The notes below the pieces were generated by a model. It ran no database searches and was not told the DNA's origin. It was given only the letters and a program-made list of their open reading frames with translations. The position numbers and the translations under genes are program-made. Of a DNA stretch of 64,000 bases, positions 5,743-30,364 are shown piece by piece (positions within the stretch are counted from its first letter, which is position 1; every line of letters begins with the position of its first letter). The stretch comes from Chthonomonas calidirosea T49 (GTDB lineage Bacteria > Armatimonadota > Chthonomonadetes > Chthonomonadales > Chthonomonadaceae), in the NCBI RefSeq assembly GCF_000427095.1, contig NC_021487.1, positions 2,052,674 through 2,116,673 on the forward strand, written 5' to 3'.

Positions 5743-6501
5743 CTACTCCACTGCCCGCCAGGAGACGGGCGTATGCTCTAGCCGATAACGCAAGTATAGC
5801 TCATCTCCATCCCTATAAACGGAAAGGAGGTGAGCACGGAGATAGAAGTCGGGTGGAAAGCCGATTCCGCCCACCGACGTTGGCAGATGCGCGCCTCCCT
5901 TTAGTTTTGGAGCGAGGGTAAGAAACAGCTCATCCGCCAAACCTTCACGGAGCAGCGCATCGTTCAAAAGCCCTCCTCCTTCACAAAGAAGATAGCGCAC
6001 CTTCTGTTCTTGTCGCATACGCCAGAAGGCTTCCGCCAGATCCGCCTCCTCTTCACCACACAAAAGGAGCGTGGCTACCGACCGGAGACGAGCTTGGGCG
6101 TCAGCTGGCAGTTTTTTGGGAGCGATTACGAAGGTCTGCTCCAGCGTGGTCTCGAAGAAACGATTTTCGAGGGGGAGATCGCCCGTACGCGTAACCACAT
6201 AGCGTGGAAGGTTGGGAGGATAGATAACGGGGCCGGCCCGTAGGGTGCCGCCACCGATGATCACGGCGTCGGCGGTACGTTGCAGGCGTCGAAAGAGCTG
6301 CTGATCGGTTGGCCCCCCAACGCCCACTGCCGAGCCGTGAGGCTTTCCAACCACGATCTTACCGTCGAGCGTAGAGGCCATGTTGATGTAGACATAGGGA
6401 CGATGCTCGGGTGGTGCTGGAAAGACGATATGCTGATAGAGTTGATCTGGCGATACAGGGCTTTCTGTAAGATCAAGTAGGCGTTCCAAAGGCATCCCCA
6501 A
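5743..6501 (-). CDS. RibD C-terminal-domain / dihydrofolate-reductase-like oxidoreductase
   Basis: A 252-residue protein of the RibD_C family: YVYINMASTLDGKIVV (residues 36-51), then DQQLFRRLQRTADAVIIGGGTLRAG, a central FVIAPKKLP strand, LLCEGGGLLNDALLREGLADELFLTLAPKLKGG near the end. These match the NADPH-binding reductase domain that reduces 5-amino-6-ribosylamino-uracil phosphate in riboflavin synthesis. No deaminase domain is attached, so it is either a stand-alone reductase or one with another substrate. The start is TTG 6501, directly after the TAG of the upstream gene, with GGAGGG six bases before it; an ATG at 6495 would put that site 12 bases away. Likely co-transcribed with, and translationally coupled to, the M20 gene. 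Confidence 0.75.
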   Translation of the reverse strand: MGMPLERLLDLTESPVSPDQLYQHIVFPAPPEHRPYVYINMASTLDGKIVVGKPHGSAVGVGGPTDQQLFRRLQRTADAVIIGGGTLRAGPVIYPPNLPRYVVTRTGDLPLENRFFETTLEQTFVIAPKKLPADAQARLRSVATLLLCGEEEADLAEAFWRMRQEQKVRYLLCEGGGLLNDALLREGLADELFLTLAPKLKGGAHLPTSVGGIGFPPDFYLRAHLLSVYRDGDELYLRYRLEHTPVSWRAVE

Positions 6502-7716
6502 CTAAAGCCCTCCGGCGCTAAGGGGCGCATCTTGGAGATAACGAAAGGCAAGATGACAGAACACGCCGATGCCGTAAGGCAAGGGAGCATCGCCGAAATC
6601 GTAGGTGGGGGTGTGCAGGGGGGTGACCTGTTTGCCTACACCAAGGCGAAACATAGCGCCAGGGGCGTGCTGCAGATAGATGGCGAAATCTTCCGCTCCC
6701 ATAGAGGGCGCTTCCAGCGTGATAACGTTTTGCGGCCCGAGAAGCTCTCGCCCAACCTCTTCAATTAAGTGAACGATGGCCGGGTGGTTGTTGGTGACCG
6801 GTGTGCCGAAATCGTAGGTAAAACGGTACTTCGCGCGCAAGGCGCTGCAGATGCCAGCCACAACGCGCTCGAGGCGTTCGGGCATGGTTTTGCGAAGCTC
6901 GGGATCTAGGCAGCGCACAGTTCCCTGTAGTGTGGCTTTGCCGGGAATCACATTGTAAGCAGTACCCGCATGAAACTGAGCGACGGTCACCACCACTGGT
7001 TCAATAGGGTTGATCTCGCGCGAAGCGAGCGTTTGAAGCGCTAAGGTGATCTGTGCCCCCACCACCACAGGGTCCACAGCACTGTGCGGCATAGCCGCGT
7101 GAGCGCCCCGCCCCTCGATCACGATATCGAACGTATCGGCAGAGGCCATCATGGGGCCGGAGCGCACCCCTATCTGTCCTACCTCTAGCCCGGGCCATCC
7201 GTGGAGGGCAGCGATCGCATCTACGCCCTCCATTGCACCATCGGCGCACATCCTCTCGGCGCCACCAGCCACCTCCTCCGCCGGTTGAAAAATAAATCGG
7301 ATGGTTCCACGCAACAGGGGGCGTAGAGCAGAAAGCACCATAGCCGCACCTAGGAGCGTGGCCATATGGCCGTCATGACCGCAGGCGTGCATCACCCCAT
7401 CACGGCAAGACCGATAGGGTATCTCGTTCTCCTCCTGAATGGGTAGGGCGTCCATATCGGCACGAAGCGCAAAGGTTGGGCCATCGGCAGCCCCTTCGGC
7501 GGTTCCCCTTAAGGAGCCAATGACTCCAAAACCACCTACGCCTTCGCGCACTTCATCTAAACTGAGGCGTCGCAGCGTTTGAGCAATCCATTGGGAAGTC
7601 GCTTCTTCTTGGTAGCTCAGCTCAGGATTTTGATGGAGATGATGGCGCCACTGAGTCACCTCGGGCAATACCCTCTCAATCTGCCCCTGAATCGCCTGAT
7701 GTACCGAATCCAACAT
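6502..7716 (-). CDS. M20 family amidohydrolase (hippurate/N-acyl-amino-acid hydrolase type)
   Basis: A 404-residue zinc-dependent hydrolase. The metal site is visible as HACGHDGHMA near residue 105, PAEEVAGGA with the catalytic Glu pair near 140, and HGWPG near 170; LHTPTYDFGD supplies the last His. A dimerisation domain occupies about 185-295. Family members remove acyl groups from amino acids or indole-acetic conjugates; the true substrate is not evident. The frame extends to 7743, but ATG 7716 has GGGAGG seven bases upstream. First gene of a two-gene unit with the RibD-like reductase, whose start follows its stop without a gap. No signal peptide, so cytoplasmic. Confidence 0.85.
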   Translation of the reverse strand: MLDSVHQAIQGQIERVLPEVTQWRHHLHQNPELSYQEEATSQWIAQTLRRLSLDEVREGVGGFGVIGSLRGTAEGAADGPTFALRADMDALPIQEENEIPYRSCRDGVMHACGHDGHMATLLGAAMVLSALRPLLRGTIRFIFQPAEEVAGGAERMCADGAMEGVDAIAALHGWPGLEVGQIGVRSGPMMASADTFDIVIEGRGAHAAMPHSAVDPVVVGAQITLALQTLASREINPIEPVVVTVAQFHAGTAYNVIPGKATLQGTVRCLDPELRKTMPERLERVVAGICSALRAKYRFTYDFGTPVTNNHPAIVHLIEEVGRELLGPQNVITLEAPSMGAEDFAIYLQHAPGAMFRLGVGKQVTPLHTPTYDFGDAPLPYGIGVFCHLAFRYLQDAPLSAGGL

Positions 7717-8004
7717 GACTTGACCTCCCAACTGCCAACGCATTTGGAATAGGATACCTCACAAGGACGCCGGACAACGCTGAAGCCAACGTGGTTGGCT
7801 AGCTTATCTACCCATCCTCCGATTCGAGAGCGGGAACACATCAACAAGTCTATCGGCAGTCTCTTCAGACAGATGATTCCTCTCTTTTAAACTGCGCCAT
7901 CTGCGAAGGGACGGAAAGGACGGGATAGAAAGTGATAGAAAGAGAATCGCGTCAGCTTGCCCTGCAAACTGCCCTTTATCTAGAAGCGCGCGCCCGGTTT
8001 AGGC

Positions 8005-21018: not shown

Positions 21019-22670
21019 ATGCGCATTGTGACCTCCGAGCAGATGCGGGAATACGACCGCTACGTTATCGAGCAGGTAGGCCTTCCTGGCGCAGTGCTTA
21101 TGGAGAACGCGGGTGCCGCCGTTGCCCAGGTCATCGCACAAACCCATGGAGCTTTAGCAGGTGCTCCTGTTGCGCTGTTTTGCGGCGGAGGGAATAACGG
21201 CGGCGACGGCTTTGTGGTGGCGCGACGGCTAGCGCTTTTGGGCGCACATCCTACCGTCTACCTCTTTGGTAAGGAAGAGAGCCTGAAGGCAGATGCCGCT
21301 ACGCATCTTCAGGTGCTGCGACGTATGGGCCTGCCCGTGGTGGCTGGCGCCGACCCCCATCAGCTGGTCATCGATCCGAACACCGCGTTAGCAGTAGATG
21401 CCCTGTTGGGAACCGGAAGTAAAGGAGCACCTCGCGAACCGATTCGTGGGGCCATCGTCACAATGAATCGGCTCGCATGCCCCATCTACGCGGTGGATAT
21501 CCCCTCCGGCATCGACTCGGATACGGGCGCCGTGCCAGCAGAGGCCGTGCGCGCGACTCACACCATTACCCTGGCCTGCCCCAAAATGGGGCTTTTCCTT
21601 TTTCCTGCGGCCGACTACGTGGGGCAGCTTCATGTGAGCGATATTGGTTTCTGCTGGGACGCGCTCGAGTTGCCCTCCACCGGCAGGCTCTTCTCCCCTC
21701 AAACCTCCTCAGTAGCTGCTACCATATGCGGGCCTCGACATCCCAATGCCAATAAGGGCCACTTTGGCCACGTGGCGGTGCTCGCCGGTTCCCAAGGCAT
21801 GGTAGGGGCTCCGGCTTTGGTTGCAAGAGCGGCTCAACGAGCTGGGGCGGGGCTTGTAACCGTGCTGACACCCCGCTGCATTCAGCCGGTGCTGGCCGCT
21901 AAACTCGATGAGCAGATGACGCTGCCGCTTGCCGATGGGGAGGGCGCTCTTAACGAAGAGGCCCTGCCCGACATTCTCCGTTTTGCCCCAAAAGCCACTC
22001 TTTTCTGCATCGGCCCTGGCCTCACTACACACCCCCAAACCGTTGCCCTGGTGCAGCATCTGCTGGGCGTGCTTCACAAACCCATCGTGCTCGATGCCGA
22101 TGGGTTGAACGCCCTCGCCCAAAACCCTGAGTGCTTGCGAGATCGCCCCGAAGAGGCTCCCCCCTTATTCTTACCCCACACCCAGGGGAGGCTGCTCGAC
22201 TTTTAGGAACAACAACGCAGGAGATCGAGTCCGACCGTGTAGGAGCGGTCAAGTTGCTGGCCTCTCGTTTTCGCGCGATAGCGTTGCTAAAAGGGCGCTA
22301 TACGCTCATTGCTACCCCTGATGGCACGCTATTCGTAAATACTACAGGGAACCCGGGCATGGCTACAGGTGGCAGTGGCGATAGCCTAACAGGCATTTTA
22401 GGGGGTATATTAGCTCAAGTCCTTGCGCAAGAACGCAATAAAACCGATATAAGAGATAGAATGGATGTTCTAGTCGAAGCCGTGGCGCTAGCCACCTATC
22501 TGCACGGGCGAGCGGGAGACCTGGCCTGCCAAACCCTAGGTGAGGCGGCACTGACGGCAGGCGATATCATTCACCATCTGCCCATGGCGTTTGACAAACT
22601 GCTCGTGGAACCGAGTCCGTGTAGCTTGCACTTGCAGACGAGACGTCTGCACGAGGAGACGGCCGTGTAG
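21019..22670 (+). pseudogene. nnr: Bifunctional NAD(P)H-hydrate repair enzyme Nnr, frameshifted at a C6 run
   Basis: The reading frame from ATG 21019 covers the YjeF_N epimerase domain (MRIVTSEQMREYDRYVIEQ; GGGNNGGDGFVVARRL; VDALLGTG; VDIPSGIDSDTG) and the first half of the ADP-dependent dehydratase domain (GPRHPNANKGHFGHVAVLAGS; FCIGPGLTT; VLDADGLNALAQ), then ends at 22206. The domain continues in the -1 frame (LILTPHPGEAARLLG; LLKGRYTLIATPDG; TGGSGDSLTGILGG) to 22670. The switch point is the run of six C at 22159-22164, codon 381. One additional C would restore a single 550-residue protein. So this is a true frameshift, a homopolymer sequencing error, or slippage at the run. The catalytic GSGD lies after the break. 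The last 20 residues overlap a duplicated repeat. Confidence 0.85.
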
Positions 22671-22774: not shown

Positions 22775-24169
22775 GTGGTCTTTAGCCCTGACCTCCCTCA
22801 TCTCTGCGATCAGGAGGCTTGGTTGAGAAGAGCGATTCCCAGGGGAACTGAGGCGGTTTGTGCTCGTGCAACCGTGGCGATTCTAGGAAGCTTGTTGTTC
22901 TGCAGCCTTGCGGCGTACGCTCAAAAGCCTGTCACCTCCTCTCCATCGGCCCCTTCTACATCGTCTAAGCCGGCGGCTCCCGTTCAGCCCACGATCCAGA
23001 TTCAACGGCAAGTGAGCGGAGATCTGCTTTATCGCTTTCTTCTCCCTAACGGTATCCCCACAGCGCCTGTACCCCTGCCAACCCCCACCGATGCCAGCCA
23101 GACCGTAGCTGTTACGCTACCTGCAAACTTGCCCCAAAATGCAGTTTTAGAGATCATTGATCGCACCACTGGTAGAGTGGCGCATTTGCCGGTCAAAACC
23201 AAAGGGGTCACCGCCCTCACAGACGCCGATTTCACCCTTGTGCAAACGGTGATGGTGCCTGTTCAGGTGGAGGGTAAGGGAGGCCTCACCGATGCGATCG
23301 TTACCCTTACCAGCGCCGACGGAAAATATAAGGCGAGTTGGCTACTGAAGGCAGCAGATAAAGGTGTCGCTCAGTTTACTAACGTTCCCATGGGTGTGGC
23401 CCTCACCGTTACGGTAAAGAACGACGATGACCCTCCTATCAGCCAAACCCAAACGCTGCCAACGAATCCGCCCGCAGAGGGCTATCATTGGCCAACGATC
23501 ACCGTCACTTGGCCGGATGCCCATAGTGTCCCCTTGCCGGCTGCTCCTACCACACCAGCGGCACCAACCACATCTCCTCCCAGCGTCACACCACCGCCGA
23601 CGTCGAACCCGATAAGCGACATCGTTTCGACCCTTATTGGGCTTGCCATCATCGGGGGAATAGGCTATGGGATTGTTTGGGCCTATAAGCAGGGCCATCT
23701 GAGGCGCTTTTTTGAGGGAATCGGCATGCATATTCCCGAATCCCAGACTCAGCCAGACCTACAACCTTTTAAGAAGCCGGAGCAACCTCCTCTTCCGCCG
23801 ATCACCGAAGGAACCGCCGACCCCCTTGCCGGACTTAGCGGTGTGGCCGGCTCTCCTCTCAACGTGGGAAGTCGGCCGCGCCTAGTGGGCACTATCGGCG
23901 TCTACGCGGGGCAAATGTTCGAACTGCAGGGCTCGCAGGTGGATATCGGCCGCGAGCCTTCTAACACGGTGGTTCTCTCGCAGGATAGCAACGTATCACG
24001 GCGTCATGCCAGTATTCAAAACCAGGGTGGGCAGTTCGTCATTGTGGATAACGGCTCCTCTAACGGAACGTTTGTCAATGGGGCTCGCATTCCCCCGCAA
24101 ACCCCTCATCCACTCCGCCCCGGTGATGAGATTCAGGTGGGTATGACGCGCTTTCGCTTTGAGACATAA
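22775..24169 (+). CDS. Secreted/membrane FHA-domain protein
   Basis: About 464 residues. A signal peptide or first membrane segment (ATVAILGSLLFCSLAAYAQK) lies near residues 36-52, followed by a Pro/Ser-rich linker, an extracytoplasmic beta-rich region of about 180 residues, a Pro/Thr-rich stretch, one transmembrane helix (DIVSTLIGLAIIGGIGYGIVW), and a cytoplasmic C-terminal FHA domain with all core elements: VDIGREPSNTVVL, SNVSRRHASI and NGSSNGTFVNG. FHA domains bind phosphothreonine. So this looks like a transmembrane link between an external domain and cytoplasmic phosphosignalling. The start is uncertain: GTG 22775 has TAGGAGG seven bases upstream, while GTG 22742 lies in the duplicated repeat. 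First gene of a five-gene FHA/VWA/PP2C cluster. Confidence 0.8.
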   Translation: MVFSPDLPHLCDQEAWLRRAIPRGTEAVCARATVAILGSLLFCSLAAYAQKPVTSSPSAPSTSSKPAAPVQPTIQIQRQVSGDLLYRFLLPNGIPTAPVPLPTPTDASQTVAVTLPANLPQNAVLEIIDRTTGRVAHLPVKTKGVTALTDADFTLVQTVMVPVQVEGKGGLTDAIVTLTSADGKYKASWLLKAADKGVAQFTNVPMGVALTVTVKNDDDPPISQTQTLPTNPPAEGYHWPTITVTWPDAHSVPLPAAPTTPAAPTTSPPSVTPPPTSNPISDIVSTLIGLAIIGGIGYGIVWAYKQGHLRRFFEGIGMHIPESQTQPDLQPFKKPEQPPLPPITEGTADPLAGLSGVAGSPLNVGSRPRLVGTIGVYAGQMFELQGSQVDIGREPSNTVVLSQDSNVSRRHASIQNQGGQFVIVDNGSSNGTFVNGARIPPQTPHPLRPGDEIQVGMTRFRFET

Positions 24170-24181
24170 GGATCTAACGCC

Positions 24182-25669
24182 ATGCGTTCACGTATCATCG
24201 TATGTACGCTTGCCGGTTTGGTAGGTGGTTTGGTCGGAGCGCTCCTTCAAGAGGCCCTTATCCACTACCAGGTAATCCGCGGGATATCTGGTGACTGTTT
24301 GCCGGTTCCTCCCACTCCGGGGCAGGTGAGGCTTCTAGCCTTTTGCGTAGGCGGGCTTCCGGGCATGCTTTTGGGAACCGCCGATGGGGTTGTTGAAGGG
24401 AACTCCCGTAAACTCTTGCGAGGCATCGTTGTCGGGCTGATAGGTGGCTTCCTGTTGGGCTACATAGGTATGATGTTTGGCAATATGCTGTACAACCTGC
24501 TTGGCGGCCCGGCAGATATGAGCTCCCGCCTGGGCTTAGGAAGCTTTCTCCATGAGGTCATCGCGCGAGCTTTTGGGTGGTCGCTGCTGGGTGCGGGCAT
24601 TGGGACCGGTGCCGCCATCAGCACGCTACACCCAAAGCGGATTGGGCGTGGAGCGTTAGGAGGCTTTCTTGGTGGATTTATCGGCGGCTTTGTCTTCGAT
24701 CTTGTTGCGGTGACGGCTGCGCCTCTTCAGGCCCCGCTTAAATCGGGCGCTTGCTACGAAGCGGGTGGGTTAAGTAGAATCATTGGGTTTACAGCCATCG
24801 CTACCTGTACTGGCCTTTTGGTGGGCATTGTGGAAGAGCTTTTGAAAGAGGCCTGGGTGCGTGTGCTGGTGGGTCGTAATGAAGGACGCGATTTCTCTTT
24901 AGAGAGGCCGGTAAACATCTTAGGACGCGACGAGCGCTGTGACGTGCCTCTTTACGGCGACCCAAGTGTTGGCATTCAGCATGCCGCTATTTGCAAAGAG
25001 GATAATCGGCACGTTTTGGTGGATGCGGGTACGCCCACAGGCACGGTGGTGAATGGCCAACCCGTGCCTCCGAACGGAAAAGTGGTGTTGCGCGACGGCG
25101 ATATGATTCAGATTGGAATGCACCGCATCCTCTTTCGAGAACGCGCTACCGCCTCCAAAGTGCGGCCGATCGGAGTGGAGACACCGCGCAGCGCCGCTGG
25201 CAATCCGCTCTCGCCTATGCCATCGCATCTTTGCCCCTACTGTGGCGCGCCTAAAGATGCGGCCGGTAATTGCCGATGTACGGTGACGCCCTCAGCACCC
25301 ATGCCCGTAACAGACCCACTAGGAGGCATGGCTTATGGCAGCAGCCTAGGGGCCTCCGCTCCGACGGCAGGGGTAGGGACGATTTTAGGTCGGCTTGTAG
25401 GAATAGAGGGGCCTATCGCTGGGCAGATCATACCGCTAGAGAAACCAAATATCACTATAGGACGTGAGGCCGGTAGAGACATTGTGATCGCCAACGACCC
25501 CACCGTTTCGCGCACTCATGCGGAATTAAGCTACGTGAACGGAGTTTGGATGGTAAGAGATAACAACTCCTCCAACGGCACGTTCGTCAACGGGATGCGC
25601 ATCAGCATTCAGGAGCTGCACCCAGGAGACATCGTGCAGTTCGGTTCGAGCCGTTTTCGCTTCGAGTAA
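24182..25669 (+). CDS. Membrane protein with two FHA domains and a zinc ribbon
   Basis: 495 residues. The first 225 are Gly-rich membrane segments (about six helices; repeated GGxxGGF phrases such as GALGGFLGGFIGGFVFDLV). A first FHA-like domain (about 232-320) has ILGRDERCDVPL but SVGIQHAAI and GTPTGTVVNG where canonical domains have SRxH and SNGT, so its phosphothreonine pocket appears degenerate. A zinc ribbon (CPYCGAPKDAAGNCRC) sits near 350. A second FHA domain at the C-terminus is canonical: TIGREAGRDIVI, PTVSRTHAEL, NNSSNGTFVNG. It begins 12 bases after the upstream FHA gene, in one operon. Function unknown; a membrane-anchored adaptor for phosphorylated partners is inferred. Confidence 0.8.
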   Translation: MRSRIIVCTLAGLVGGLVGALLQEALIHYQVIRGISGDCLPVPPTPGQVRLLAFCVGGLPGMLLGTADGVVEGNSRKLLRGIVVGLIGGFLLGYIGMMFGNMLYNLLGGPADMSSRLGLGSFLHEVIARAFGWSLLGAGIGTGAAISTLHPKRIGRGALGGFLGGFIGGFVFDLVAVTAAPLQAPLKSGACYEAGGLSRIIGFTAIATCTGLLVGIVEELLKEAWVRVLVGRNEGRDFSLERPVNILGRDERCDVPLYGDPSVGIQHAAICKEDNRHVLVDAGTPTGTVVNGQPVPPNGKVVLRDGDMIQIGMHRILFRERATASKVRPIGVETPRSAAGNPLSPMPSHLCPYCGAPKDAAGNCRCTVTPSAPMPVTDPLGGMAYGSSLGASAPTAGVGTILGRLVGIEGPIAGQIIPLEKPNITIGREAGRDIVIANDPTVSRTHAELSYVNGVWMVRDNNSSNGTFVNGMRISIQELHPGDIVQFGSSRFRFE

Positions 25670-25732
25670 AGAAAGTGTTACACCGAAAACCGTTGCACCG
25701 GCTCTGAGAGCCGTGAGAAAAGAGGCAGGAAC

Positions 25733-27061
25733 ATGGAAGATCGCACACAGATTATAGGCGCACCACCTACGCAGATGGGCGCCATGCCCACCCAAATGGG
25801 AATGGCGCAAACACAGATGGGAACTGCACTCCAAACTCTTGAAGTGGAGTGTATGTCGGGCAATCGTTATGCTCTTGCCGGCGACATTTCCCGCGAGCAC
25901 GCTCTCGTTGTGCTTAAGGCCACCGGACAACAGCTTGGACGGCGTGCCCCCATCAACGTATGTCTCTGCATTGACCGCTCCGGCAGCATGGAGGGGCCTC
26001 CGTTAGAGTATGTGAAAATGGCGTGCGACTATGTGGTGGATATGCTTGAGCCGAACGATATTCTTTCCATCGTCACCTTTGAAGAGCATGTAGACGTGCT
26101 GATGCCGGCTCGCCGCGTGGTGAACAAGGCGCTTATCAAAGAGCATATCCATCGCATTGAGCCGGGCAATACCACGAACCTTTACGATGGATTAGTTGCC
26201 GCCTTCATGCAGATCGCCGCCGTGTTGCCCCAAACACAAGGCTATGTCACACGCGTGTTGCTGCTTACCGATGGTGAACCGACGGTTGGAATCAAAGACT
26301 ATGGCACCATTGTGCAACAAGTTGCAGAACAGCGCGCTAAGGGCATTACCGTCACGGCATTGGGTTTTGGCCCAGAGTACAACGAGGAGCTTCTGGCAGG
26401 AATTGCCAAACGAAGTGGAGGCAACTATTATTACATTCAGCGCCCCGACCTCATCCCCGAGGTGTTTCGGCGCGAACTGGAGACGGTGATGTCGGTTGTC
26501 GCTCGAAACGTTCAGGTGCGTCTCCACCTATCACGATGGGTTAACCTACGCCAAGTCTACGGGCTGCAACCCTCTTTCGGCCCGCGCACCATCGAGGTAA
26601 CCGTGCCCGACATCGAGCGAGGTACCTCGCGCACGGTGTTGGTAGAGTTGGAGTTCGAGCGTCATCCGGTAGGGATTTTCCGTGTAGCGAAGGCTGTGGT
26701 CACTTACGAGGACCTTCTTGCGAACCGACCCGGTCAGGCACAAGCCGACTGCGTTTTTGAGTTCACCAAGGACGCGTCGCTTTTGGCACAAGGGGTTAAC
26801 CCCATTGTGCGTAACGAGATCGAAATAGCGCAGGCTTCCCAGAATCTACAACGCACCATCATGGGGATGCGTACGCAACAGCTCACGGCCATGGGAGCTC
26901 TTTCCGAACTGCAACGCACTCGCACCATCCTTATGCAAACAGGCCAAACAGAGAAGGCTCAACAGTTGGAGGCGGCCATGCAGTCGCTTCAGCGAGGGAG
27001 TGGCGACGTGGAGAAAACCCTCATGGGCACCATTGTAGACATCGAACAGGGCAAACGATAA
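25733..27061 (+). CDS. VWA-domain protein with N-terminal TQMG repeats
   Basis: 442 residues, no signal peptide, cytoplasmic. The N-terminal 31 residues hold three copies of TQMG about 7-9 residues apart, preceded by a related TQIIG. A von Willebrand A domain runs from about 72 to 260 with an intact metal site: DRSGS at 81-85, the Thr in GNTTNLYDGL and the Asp in LLTDGEPT. A beta-rich domain follows (about 265-350), like the inter-alpha-trypsin-inhibitor-type VWA proteins, and then a helical, probably coiled-coil C-terminus rich in Gln and Met, ending with EKTLMGT. Thr residues in TQMG and EKTL are candidate phosphorylation sites for the FHA neighbours. It is the third gene of the cluster, 64 bases after the previous stop. 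Confidence 0.82.
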   Translation: MEDRTQIIGAPPTQMGAMPTQMGMAQTQMGTALQTLEVECMSGNRYALAGDISREHALVVLKATGQQLGRRAPINVCLCIDRSGSMEGPPLEYVKMACDYVVDMLEPNDILSIVTFEEHVDVLMPARRVVNKALIKEHIHRIEPGNTTNLYDGLVAAFMQIAAVLPQTQGYVTRVLLLTDGEPTVGIKDYGTIVQQVAEQRAKGITVTALGFGPEYNEELLAGIAKRSGGNYYYIQRPDLIPEVFRRELETVMSVVARNVQVRLHLSRWVNLRQVYGLQPSFGPRTIEVTVPDIERGTSRTVLVELEFERHPVGIFRVAKAVVTYEDLLANRPGQAQADCVFEFTKDASLLAQGVNPIVRNEIEIAQASQNLQRTIMGMRTQQLTAMGALSELQRTRTILMQTGQTEKAQQLEAAMQSLQRGSGDVEKTLMGTIVDIEQGKR

Positions 27062-27076
27062 GGAGGACACCAGACG

Positions 27077-28066
27077 ATGACCGATGAACCCACCCGTATG
27101 ATGGCCTCTCCGGCCGGGCCGGAGAAAACGCTATTAGCCACACCGGAGGCCGACCCCCTACGCACACAGATGGGCGGCACCACCGTTTGCCCCGTGTGTC
27201 ATGCCACCACTCCTGCACTAGAAAGCTACTGTTGCGAATGTGGTTTTCTGTTATCAGGGCCTGTTCCAGAAAGCCTAGAGGTTGCTTTGGAAGAGGCACC
27301 TCCTGCAGAGCTCGTGGAGCTTGAAACGGGACGCCGCTACCGCCTACGCGTAGGAGATAACACGGTAGGGCGGCAAGGAACCGATGTTCTGCTTTTAGAT
27401 GCCACGGTATCGCGAAACCATGCGCGTATTCACGTGGAGAATGGGCAGATATCTGTTGAAGACCTTGGCAGTACGAACGGCACCAAGGTGGGCGATCTAC
27501 GCCTTACCCCCAACCAGCCAGTCTCTGTAACGAGTGGTACCCTGCTCCGTTTCGGTAACGTTCAGCTTCGCCTCGAAGTGCGCGGAGGCGAAACTGCAGA
27601 GAAGACGGTGGCCATAGCGGCCCCATCCTCCGAGACAACGCTGCTTGCGTCCGCTGCGCAGCCGGAAGAGACCGCCTCACCCGTAGCTCGGCTCAGAAAG
27701 TTGGAGGGGCCAGGCAACGAGCTGTCCGTGCCTGCCGGGGTTTCGCGCATCGGACGGCGTCCAACCAATGAGCTAATCGTTACTGGTGATGCCTATGTTT
27801 CCGGTTTGCACGCGGAGATACGGGTTGAAAACGGTGAGGCGTGGCTCATGGACGTCGGTAGCACCAACGGCACTTTTGTCAACGGAACGCGGCTAACTCC
27901 CAATCAGCCACAGCTTTTGGCAAATGGGGATGAGGTGAAGATCGGGCAGACAAGCTACCGTTTTGAGTGGGTCGAGCCGTCTCAGCCCGAAGAGCCCCCA
28001 CAGGATATGCGGGAGCCTCAAGTAGAACAACCAAATGAAGAGGCAAACGATGCCTCCGAGACATAA
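27077..28066 (+). CDS. Zinc-ribbon protein with two FHA domains
   Basis: 329 residues, soluble. The N-terminal tail has EKTLLAT and TQMG motifs shared with the VWA protein, then a zinc ribbon CPVCHATTPALESYCCEC near 38-55. The first FHA domain (about 90-165) shows TVGRQGTDVLLL, ATVSRNHARI and LGSTNGTKV; the second (about 215-305) has RIGRRPTNELIV, AYVSGLHAEI and VGSTNGTFVNG, where Gly-Leu replaces the usual Arg before His. A linker between them carries EKTVAI and ETTLLAS, resembling the first motif. The C-terminal 25 residues are acidic and Pro-rich. GAGGACACC precedes ATG 27077, 15 bases after the VWA gene. Organisation resembles Fha/GarA-type regulators whose own N-terminal Thr is phosphorylated; that is analogy only. 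Confidence 0.82.
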   Translation: MTDEPTRMMASPAGPEKTLLATPEADPLRTQMGGTTVCPVCHATTPALESYCCECGFLLSGPVPESLEVALEEAPPAELVELETGRRYRLRVGDNTVGRQGTDVLLLDATVSRNHARIHVENGQISVEDLGSTNGTKVGDLRLTPNQPVSVTSGTLLRFGNVQLRLEVRGGETAEKTVAIAAPSSETTLLASAAQPEETASPVARLRKLEGPGNELSVPAGVSRIGRRPTNELIVTGDAYVSGLHAEIRVENGEAWLMDVGSTNGTFVNGTRLTPNQPQLLANGDEVKIGQTSYRFEWVEPSQPEEPPQDMREPQVEQPNEEANDASET

Positions 28067-28145
28067 GAAGGATAGGTAAGCTCTTGTGTGAGGGAAGTTA
28101 GGAGATCGCAGATTTTATTCTGAATGAGGTGAAAAACCGTTACCG

Positions 28146-29141
28146 ATGACAGAGACGTATTCTACATCGCAGGGAGGCCAAGAGCCTACGGCGAAATTTG
28201 AGCGTGAGGTTTTGGTGCGAGGATGGCGTTCTTACGCCCCGCGCGCGCCGCGTTGTCTCCCCCTCATCAAGTTTGCTGCCCGCACGGACATGGGACAGGT
28301 TCGCGAAAACAACGAGGATAAGTTCGATTTTTACGAGCCGGAAGAGCCAGCTATTCTTGCGCAGCGCGGATGCCTCTATGCGGTCGCCGACGGCATGGGG
28401 GGCGCTTTGGCTGGACAGATCGCCAGTGAGCTTACCCTTAAGCGCCTGCTTTCGGCCTACTACGATCATCCGGCAGACGATCCGCATGTGGCCATGCGTG
28501 AGGCCATTTTAGAGGCAAACAACTACATCTACGCTTTAGCACAGGCCATTCCCGAACGAAACGGCATGGGCAGCACGCTGGTAGCGGCTGTCTTTATTGA
28601 AGATAGAGTTTTTATTGTGCAGGTAGGCGACAGCCGTGCCTATCTATGGCGTCGTGGACAGTTTCGGCAGGTAACGGTCGATCACTCCTGGGTAGAGGAA
28701 CAGGTACGGGCGGGCGTGCTCACACGGGAAGAGGCCGAGCTGTCTCCTTTCCGCAATGTCATCACGCGCTCCATCGGTGCAACCCCAAACGTCCTGCCCG
28801 ACTTTTATGACGAAAGCGTGCAAGAGGGCGACATCTGGCTCCTCTGTTCGGACGGTCTCACCGGCCATGTAGAGGACGCCGAGATCGCTGACATTATTGG
28901 GACGCATGCGCCCTCTGAGGCCACACGACAGCTCGTTGAACTTGCCAATGCGCGTGGAGGTCGCGATAATATTACGGTTTTTGTGCTCTCTATCCGCGCC
29001 GTAGTGGCCTATGAGGAGGCCCAAGCCTTTTTTACCGCCCCTCAGATGATGCCTAAAGAAGCGGCTGTAGACGACGGAAGCCTCAGTAGCACACCGAAAC
29101 CGGCTGCCCCTTTCTGGCGCCGCTTTTTGCTCGGGTCATGA
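28146..29141 (+). CDS. PP2C-family Ser/Thr protein phosphatase
   Basis: 331 residues. Catalytic-domain motifs in order: ARTDMGQVRENNEDKF, YAVADGMGGALAGQIAS, NGMGSTLVAAVF, VQVGDSRAYLWR, ITRSIGATPNVLPDF, LLCSDGLTGHVED and GGRDNITVFVL. These supply the Asp residues of the two-metal centre of PPM phosphatases. A 40-residue N-terminal extension and a C-terminal Pro-rich tail ending FWRRFLLGS are extra; no transmembrane helix is clear. It would reverse Thr phosphorylation read by the FHA proteins upstream. The cognate kinase is not in the window. No good ribosome site stands close to ATG 28146; an AGGTG lies 14 bases away. Confidence 0.88.
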   Translation: MTETYSTSQGGQEPTAKFEREVLVRGWRSYAPRAPRCLPLIKFAARTDMGQVRENNEDKFDFYEPEEPAILAQRGCLYAVADGMGGALAGQIASELTLKRLLSAYYDHPADDPHVAMREAILEANNYIYALAQAIPERNGMGSTLVAAVFIEDRVFIVQVGDSRAYLWRRGQFRQVTVDHSWVEEQVRAGVLTREEAELSPFRNVITRSIGATPNVLPDFYDESVQEGDIWLLCSDGLTGHVEDAEIADIIGTHAPSEATRQLVELANARGGRDNITVFVLSIRAVVAYEEAQAFFTAPQMMPKEAAVDDGSLSSTPKPAAPFWRRFLLGS

Positions 29142-29347: not shown

Positions 29348-30037
29348 TCAAAGGGGTGAGACTTGAATGATGCCATCTACAATACGTGCAACTTCGGGAC
29401 GCGGGCTAGCAGTCGCAACACGAGTCTCTTCCTCAGGCGCGCGAGCGATCTGGCCGGCAATGCGAAGTTGCTGGGGACGCATGTTGCCCGCTATAATGCG
29501 TGCTCCCTCGTTTCCATAGCAGCCAGCATGCGCTAAACCGCGCAACGTCCCTAGAACCACAATATCTCCACCAGCAATCACCTCTGCTCCCGGGTTTACA
29601 TCGCCACCGACAATCAGGTGCGTATGGTGGGTGAGTCTCTGTCCGGAGCGCACTGTGCCGGCATAGTAAAGCGCATTGTTTCCTGCGGCGTCCACACTCG
29701 CTTCGGTGCTAAGGGGCGCGCCTGGAGCCATAAGATAGACGCCCAGAGCTAGCCGACGGGCGGCCTCATGCGTGTGCATGTCGGTACTTACAACGGCCAC
29801 AACCAACACCCCGTAACGATCACGTAAAAGTGCCACTAAATCTTGCAGTAGCTCGTAACTAACTTGACGCACGCCAAACTCGATGGTGATCTGCACTCCT
29901 CGTACCGACATGGAGGGTTTTACCTCCTCGAGTCGCGCTTCTATCTGGGCAAGGGCCTCTTCCCACTCTAAGTCGGCAGGCACCGTAAGCAGAAACTCCT
30001 GCAGCAAACCGTTATGCCACGGCTGCAGCGTTACCAT
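29348..30037 (-). CDS. minC: Septum site-determining protein MinC
   Basis: 229 residues. The C-terminal beta-helix domain is clear: HLIVGGDVNPGAEVIAGGDIVVLGTLRGLAHAG, then IIAGNMRPQQLRIAGQIAR (roughly residues 140-205). The N-terminal domain (about 1-105) is the less conserved FtsZ-inhibiting part. MinC blocks FtsZ ring assembly away from mid-cell when bound to MinD at the membrane. minD and minE, often adjacent, are absent here. ATG 30037 is chosen over GTG 30043 because GGAG lies five bases upstream of the ATG. Convergent with the PP2C gene. Confidence 0.87.
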   Translation of the reverse strand: MVTLQPWHNGLLQEFLLTVPADLEWEEALAQIEARLEEVKPSMSVRGVQITIEFGVRQVSYELLQDLVALLRDRYGVLVVAVVSTDMHTHEAARRLALGVYLMAPGAPLSTEASVDAAGNNALYYAGTVRSGQRLTHHTHLIVGGDVNPGAEVIAGGDIVVLGTLRGLAHAGCYGNEGARIIAGNMRPQQLRIAGQIARAPEEETRVATASPRPEVARIVDGIIQVSPL

Positions 30038-30364
30038 AAACACTCCTTTTTGGTACAGAGTTTTCTACCTATTATTCGCCAAACCCTTCCAATATCCTGC
30101 TTAGTCTCCAAGGTCTCCCACAGCACGTATGTTCCAAAACCATGCTGCTTTTGTTGCGTGTTGATAGATACCAACTTATTTATCTAGATACAATTTTGCC
30201 ATCTTACATCTTAAAAGCCAGTTTACGCCAAAAAAGTTTAGGGAAACGGTTCGTGGTCTTTTAGGCCAACTTCACAGGCAGCAGAGATGAGTTACAAGCG
30301 TCCGAACTTCCCTTTTGACCAGCCGCTGTAAAGCGCCCAGCCTATCCGACCGTGCTCGCCGGGT
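30038..30364. other. Gene-free stretch upstream of minC
   Basis: No supported gene, AT-richer in its left half. It should hold the minC promoter (possible -10 near AATAAT at about 30073-30078 on the minus strand, poor -35). No clear hairpin or repeat seen. Confidence 0.4.

Follow-up and report, generated by a model that had tools for sequence, protein, structure and literature searches.

The window analysed here, meaning the whole stretch of 64,000 nucleotides, spans positions 2052674-2116673 of contig C1, which is the entire Chthonomonas calidirosea genome (3,437,861 bases). Five consecutive ORFs on its + strand, with gaps of 12-79 bp between them, encode FHA1, FHA2, a VWA protein, FHA3 and a PP2C phosphatase, and an AGGAGG site precedes the GTG start of FHA1. 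Pfam finds five FHA domains across three proteins, one VWA domain and one PP2C domain in this module. The consecutive same-strand FHA/VWA/PP2C set reported in the first-pass annotation is thus borne out by ORF calls, Pfam and NCBIfam. Genome-wide, there are seven FHA domains, three PP2C genes and six kinase matches (five clear and one atypical), none of the latter close to the window; no kinase gene lies within 22 kb among the ORFs listed around the module. Because five of the seven genomic FHA domains fall here and the gene order recurs across Armatimonadota, the grouping is more than chance. The assignment of the module as a phosphothreonine reader/eraser set is supported. A promoter and terminator scan gave a result no better than chance level. 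Downstream, outside the module, a MinC_C gene (29348-30043, - strand) occupies the place that the kinase gene holds in relatives and marks the site of a broken operon. Upstream lies nnrDE (NAD(P)HX epimerase/dehydratase; 21019-22670, + strand), a conserved neighbour in 37 of the 61 loci compared. A frameshift close to six consecutive C (about 22160-22165) interrupts this gene, in what is the sole genomic copy of the stretch; it may be a sequencing error or a real mutation.

FHA1 (22775-24169, + strand), defined from the ORF list, Pfam and an AF2 model, consists of a signal/anchor helix, an external beta-sandwich region (about aa 70-250), a Pro/Thr-rich linker, a TM helix (aa 279-306; about 294-312 in ORF numbering) and a canonical cytoplasmic FHA domain (23942-24142), whose pThr-binding residues are invariant in 16 orthologues. 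The model has a pLDDT of 80.3, with the external part mostly above 90 and showing confident beta structure, which supports the external domain that had been proposed for this protein. The 50 best Foldseek matches are all FHA-domain structures and include no named relative of the external domain. FHA2 (24182-25669, + strand; ORF list, Pfam and residue inspection) has an N-terminal membrane domain of four hydrophobic segments, a first FHA domain (FHA2.1, 24917-25117), a zinc-ribbon motif CPYC...CRC (about 25232-25279) and a second, canonical FHA domain (FHA2.2, 25451-25645). The pThr site of FHA2.1 is without Ser and Asn in C. calidirosea and relatives alike, and this degenerate site is perhaps structural; the other four of the five FHA domains in the module keep their pThr-binding residues.

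FHA3 (27077-28066, + strand), assigned from Pfam and an ArnA-like layout, has no membrane segments. Its N-tail carries the motifs EKTLLAT and RTQMGG and is followed by a zinc ribbon, CPVC...CCECG (about 27190-27247), and two FHA domains (27362-27556 and 27746-27946). Its best PDB matches are GarA/OdhI, with weaker matches to ArnA chains (E 3e-6; 5a8i, 8s05_C). The count of five FHA domains, two membrane FHA proteins (FHA1 and FHA2) and two zinc ribbons (Cys motifs in FHA2 and FHA3) given previously is therefore confirmed. The last gene (28146-29141, + strand; Pfam and NCBIfam) encodes a Ser/Thr phosphatase that scores above the cut-off of the Stp1/IreP family NF033484 (246.6 versus 230 bits). 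Some relatives vary this part of the locus. At L084:3223-4425 and L075:10273-11352, FHA3 and a DnaJ J-domain form one fusion protein, hinting at a chaperone link, and DnaJ-like sequence similarly accompanies FHA3 in L067, L069 and L072. A gene for an RDD-family membrane protein stands between FHA3 and PP2C in L055, L067, L071, L072 and L084.

The VWA protein (25733-27061, + strand), described from Pfam, an AF2 model (pLDDT 85.9) and Foldseek, consists of a disordered N-tail, a VWA domain with an intact MIDAS (DRSGS), a split beta-sandwich and a C-terminal four-helix bundle. The top Foldseek match of the model is 8S05, ArnB in the ArnAB complex (E 2.5e-27, TM 0.68/0.78), followed by 4FX5 and the ArnB paralogue 5A8J, and a sequence-profile match to ArnB extends over residues 92-436 (E 1.1e-17). 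The N-tail contains a series of threonine repeats (RTQIIG, PTQMG, PTQMG and QTQMG; 25733-25822, + strand) and is a predicted target of the kinase and FHA domains. Across 60 VWA tails, with the consensus D-P-N-[RK]-T-Q-[MA], we counted 122 [RK]T[QAVMLI] motifs versus 12.7 in shuffled tails (maximum 24). In the helix bundle, all 24 diverse VWA orthologues compared keep T375, T396 and T429, and T381 is present in 23 of them. The bundle ends in an EKTLMGT motif (27011-27031, + strand) that contains T429, recognized by its conservation among orthologues; the pattern [EDQG]KT[LI]xG is present in all 60 VWA loci. At the DNA level, 4 of 19 genome matches to a TQMG-coding pattern fall inside the VWA and FHA3 genes, and among the 12 places read there was one more in-frame match in a long ORF. 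Judged by the threonine-repeat tails and the modelled ArnB fold, the VWA protein is likely to be the phosphorylated hub that was suggested for it. Plasmid-borne VWA relatives in cyanobacteria and Deinococcus share 29-41% identity with it, mostly over the VWA domain only, and the three such neighbourhoods read contain no FHA, PP2C or kinase annotations nearby. In two cyanobacterial plasmid loci (L271 and L273), a gene for a MerR-type regulator lies directly ahead of the hub-related VWA gene.

We searched 291 Armatimonadota genomes for the VWA protein, and read and profile-scanned 60 neighbourhoods. The full order FHA1-FHA2-VWA-FHA3-PP2C-kinase on one strand occurs in 18 of the 60 loci, and a further 10 have the kinase plus a part or variant of the remaining set. 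Five loci hold the set without a kinase in reach, among them L041, which is cut by a contig end, and L043, where the contig ends soon after PP2C. FHA1-FHA2-VWA only is found in 14 loci, the VWA gene only in 7, and other partial sets without a kinase in 6. A lack of conserved order in any relative had been named as grounds for discarding the module; the order is found again and again in Armatimonadota. Gene order supports just part of the set in many relatives, the large family f15 among them, since FHA3, PP2C and the kinase do not adjoin the VWA gene there. Conserved neighbours comprise only acpS and nnrDE upstream, with an RDD or J-domain addition in some loci; a gene for an output was not seen among the conserved neighbours of the compared loci. 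Using thresholds of E <= 1e-50 for the VWA protein and E <= 1e-75 for the kinase, set by eye at gaps in the distributions, 179 of the 291 genomes contain orthologues of both, 12 have the VWA protein alone, 10 have the kinase alone, and 90 lack the two. Incomplete genomes account for many of the discordant cases. Since the genomes are non-independent, a Fisher value for this co-occurrence serves as a rough guide.

Altogether, a Ser/Thr kinase gene lies downstream of PP2C in 28 of the 60 VWA loci. Its orthologue in C. calidirosea is found at C1:1685732-1687726, 388 kb from the module, with no module genes within the surrounding 20 kb. The relocated kinase shares 43-47% full-length identity with the operon kinases of close relatives, versus 27-37% for other comparable kinases of the genome, in the kinase domain only. 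A maximum-likelihood tree places it in a clade of 34 members (support 100/99), made up of the 28 operon kinases, five unlinked ones and the C. calidirosea copy. The kinase of the genome's FhaA-like cluster was ruled out as the operon-kinase orthologue by the tree, in which it and the other kinases lie outside the clade, and by identity. In all five other genomes examined for this (G034, G045, G054, G079 and G134), the kinase is likewise unlinked to the module yet orthologous. Operon dispersal is a documented trait of C. calidirosea (PMC4959169). The earlier view that a writer is missing therefore stands for the local gene order only: as a kinase-less system the module is refuted by the operon kinases and the unlinked orthologue, and the situation named beforehand as refuting it, a kinase gene next to the others within their operon, occurs in relatives and not in the C. 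calidirosea genome.

The kinase itself is unusual. In place of the GxGxxG loop, all 34 clade members carry a motif such as REIARSNDIVYEA, in which SND is invariant, while HRD, DFG and the post-loop lysine are retained; the catalytic activity of a kinase with this glycine-less loop is a prediction from sequence. The relocated protein has one TM segment and, in its C-terminal half, weak TPR matches below Pfam cut-offs. It falls below the PASTA/PknB cut-off NF033483 (316.7 versus 450 bits) and has no PASTA repeats. A DNA pattern for the loop, from which the distribution outside Armatimonadota was judged, matched at least 120 records among GTDB contigs; these were picked by the loop itself and are hence uninformative on its invariance. 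Among the 80 matches listed, 79 are real kinases and one (L190) is a chance match. The 79 come from Armatimonadota-named or unnamed records, bar one archaeal MAG contig: L197, labelled Methanoregulaceae archaeon, bears an Armatimonadota kinase at 6263-7894 and is probably mis-binned.

A close mechanistic counterpart exists in archaea, a starvation and motility switch that controls the archaellum. In Sulfolobus acidocaldarius, ArnA (zinc finger plus FHA) and ArnB (VWA) act with the kinase ArnC and the phosphatase PP2A, and when ArnC phosphorylates threonines in the ArnB helix bundle, the binding of ArnA changes from loose, through the zinc finger, to tight, through FHA (PMC6509490, PMC12852372). 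Unphosphorylated ArnA and ArnB associate loosely via the zinc finger, and ArnB-fold proteins without a known phospho-switch include E. coli YfbK and C. acidiphila 4FX5 (PMC12852372). The statement that no system of this composition had been described was thus too strong in part, given ArnA/ArnB/ArnC/PP2A (PMC6509490, PMC12852372). Like ArnB, the modelled hub combines a VWA domain, a split beta-sandwich and a C-terminal four-helix bundle, and it has conserved threonines in the bundle, phosphorylation of which is predicted here. Directly downstream of it, FHA3 resembles ArnA in joining an N-terminal zinc ribbon to FHA, and the Armatimonadota kinase, like ArnC, may have a TPR-like region, to which it gave the weak matches. 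There are also clear differences. FHA3 has two FHA domains whereas ArnA has one, and the membrane proteins FHA1 and FHA2 are additions relative to ArnAB. The linked eraser is a PP2C of the Stp1/IreP family and not PP2A, and the kinase differs from that of Arn in its membrane location and its glycine-less loop. The ArnB phosphosites lie in the helix bundle and not in the N-tail, whereas the Armatimonadota hub has a long threonine-repeat N-tail; finally, the setting is bacterial, with no archaellum. By its anatomy the system would work like ArnAB. As the eraser linked to it belongs to a different family and its phosphorylation steps are predicted, we do not count it within the Arn network.

We consider it likely that the locus supplies five components of a six-part phosphothreonine switch conserved in Armatimonadota, with its kinase 388 kb away and an ArnAB-like mechanism. 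This reading draws on gene composition and order, the kinase orthologue, co-occurrence, the threonine motifs and the ArnB fold, from which we infer the phosphorylation events, the binding partners and the direction of signalling. The kinase would phosphorylate threonines of the VWA N-tail, the VWA C-terminal helix bundle and the FHA3 N-tail. FHA3 and the VWA protein would first make a loose contact via the zinc ribbon, as in archaeal ArnAB, which would then become tight through binding of FHA to pThr. The phosphorylated hub could be drawn to the membrane by FHA1, with its external domain as a putative sensor, and by FHA2, and PP2C would reset the switch. The six-part system is apparently undescribed; no description of it was found in the literature searched. 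The more specific proposal of a phylum-restricted bacterial ArnAB counterpart, built of an ArnB-fold hub with tails of multiple threonine sites, three FHA adaptors (two of them in the membrane), a PP2C and an SND-loop kinase, is about as likely as not.

If true, this would extend ArnAB-type signalling to bacteria in the form of a linked operon and add a new Hanks-kinase subfamily. While FHA/PP2C/kinase signalling itself is well known, a system with its own VWA hub, a dedicated kinase and marked threonine targets has wiring that is directly testable, and a kinase family without a glycine loop sets a well-defined problem for biochemistry. The ArnB-like fold points to a greater age or a wider spread of FHA-VWA phosphoswitches than the archaeal system would lead one to expect. 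It was comparison with relatives that completed an 'orphan' module in a genome of scattered operons.

The same circuit might have envelope growth or division as its output, in the manner of the mycobacterial FhaA/PstP/PknA/PknB system, and not starvation or motility; we regard this as possible, if rather unlikely. In its favour, FHA1 and FHA2 are anchored in the membrane, the former with an external domain, the kinase also carries a TM segment, the PP2C is of the Stp1/IreP class, and the conserved neighbours acpS and nnrDE are housekeeping genes. The mycobacterial FhaA-FhaB-PstP-PknA/PknB cluster likewise encodes FHA readers, a PP2C eraser and a TM kinase together. However, the conserved neighbours include no recurring cell-wall gene. 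The module has no RodA or PBP, and the mycobacterial cluster is not known to have a VWA hub. A separate cluster in the genome suits the envelope role better: at L007:9030-13639 (G000:C1:1267-1272 kb), genes for FhaA_N-FHA-FHA, PP2C and a kinase lie in a row in an FhaA/PstP/Pkn-like arrangement. The FhaA_N domain found there is absent from the proteins of the window, and this cluster is the genome's better match to the mycobacterial one than the module.

The same cluster supplies a candidate for a different writer. As the genome has five clear kinases plus one atypical, and its FhaA-like cluster (C1:1.27 Mb) has FHA, PP2C and kinase genes of its own, the module might be written by another kinase such as that cluster's, the relocated kinase having drifted to other work. 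This seems improbable, because the relocated kinase retains the clade-specific loop and its full-length similarity, and the VWA protein and kinases of this type are present or absent together across the phylum. Alternatively, the VWA protein might be mainly a metal-dependent scaffold whose helix bundle and tails bind FHA proteins without phosphorylation, as in the zinc-finger association of ArnA and ArnB (PMC12852372), with the kinase and phosphatase acting on different targets. The tail threonine motifs are conserved and strongly non-random, and the FHA pThr residues are conserved in four of five domains, which together make this reading decidedly improbable. A last reading, in which the module is left over from, or related to, the T6SS threonine phosphorylation pathway PpkA/PppA/Fha1, is scarcely credible and was rejected. 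The two have four domain types in common (kinase, VWA, PP2C and FHA), and PpkA itself bears a VWA domain fused to the kinase (PMC1262709). Against this, the sheath protein TssB/VipA has no match in the genome, as expected from the reported lack of T6SS genes, the VWA domain here is in a protein separate from the kinase, with an ArnB fold, and the FHA proteins score under the TagH cut-off (51-88 versus 120.25 bits).

Two further kinds of system resemble parts of the proposed six-part switch. A threonine motif in a disordered tail beside FHA, as in FHA3, is also a feature of GarA/OdhI, which the module's FHA domains match best by sequence in the PDB. GarA and OdhI are each one small protein with a role in regulating 2-oxoglutarate metabolism, and their switches are not known to have a VWA partner. 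Triads of the YegL/YegK/YegI kind bring VWA, PP2C and kinase genes together; they differ from the module in being without FHA and in having another VWA. Elsewhere in the genome, at L008:6280-10237 (G000:C1:3094-3098 kb), genes for a small VWA protein, a PP2C_2 protein and an atypical kinase bearing WD40 repeats lie beside dnaK and dnaJ, a locus separate from the module that we take to resemble the YegL/YegK/YegI type.
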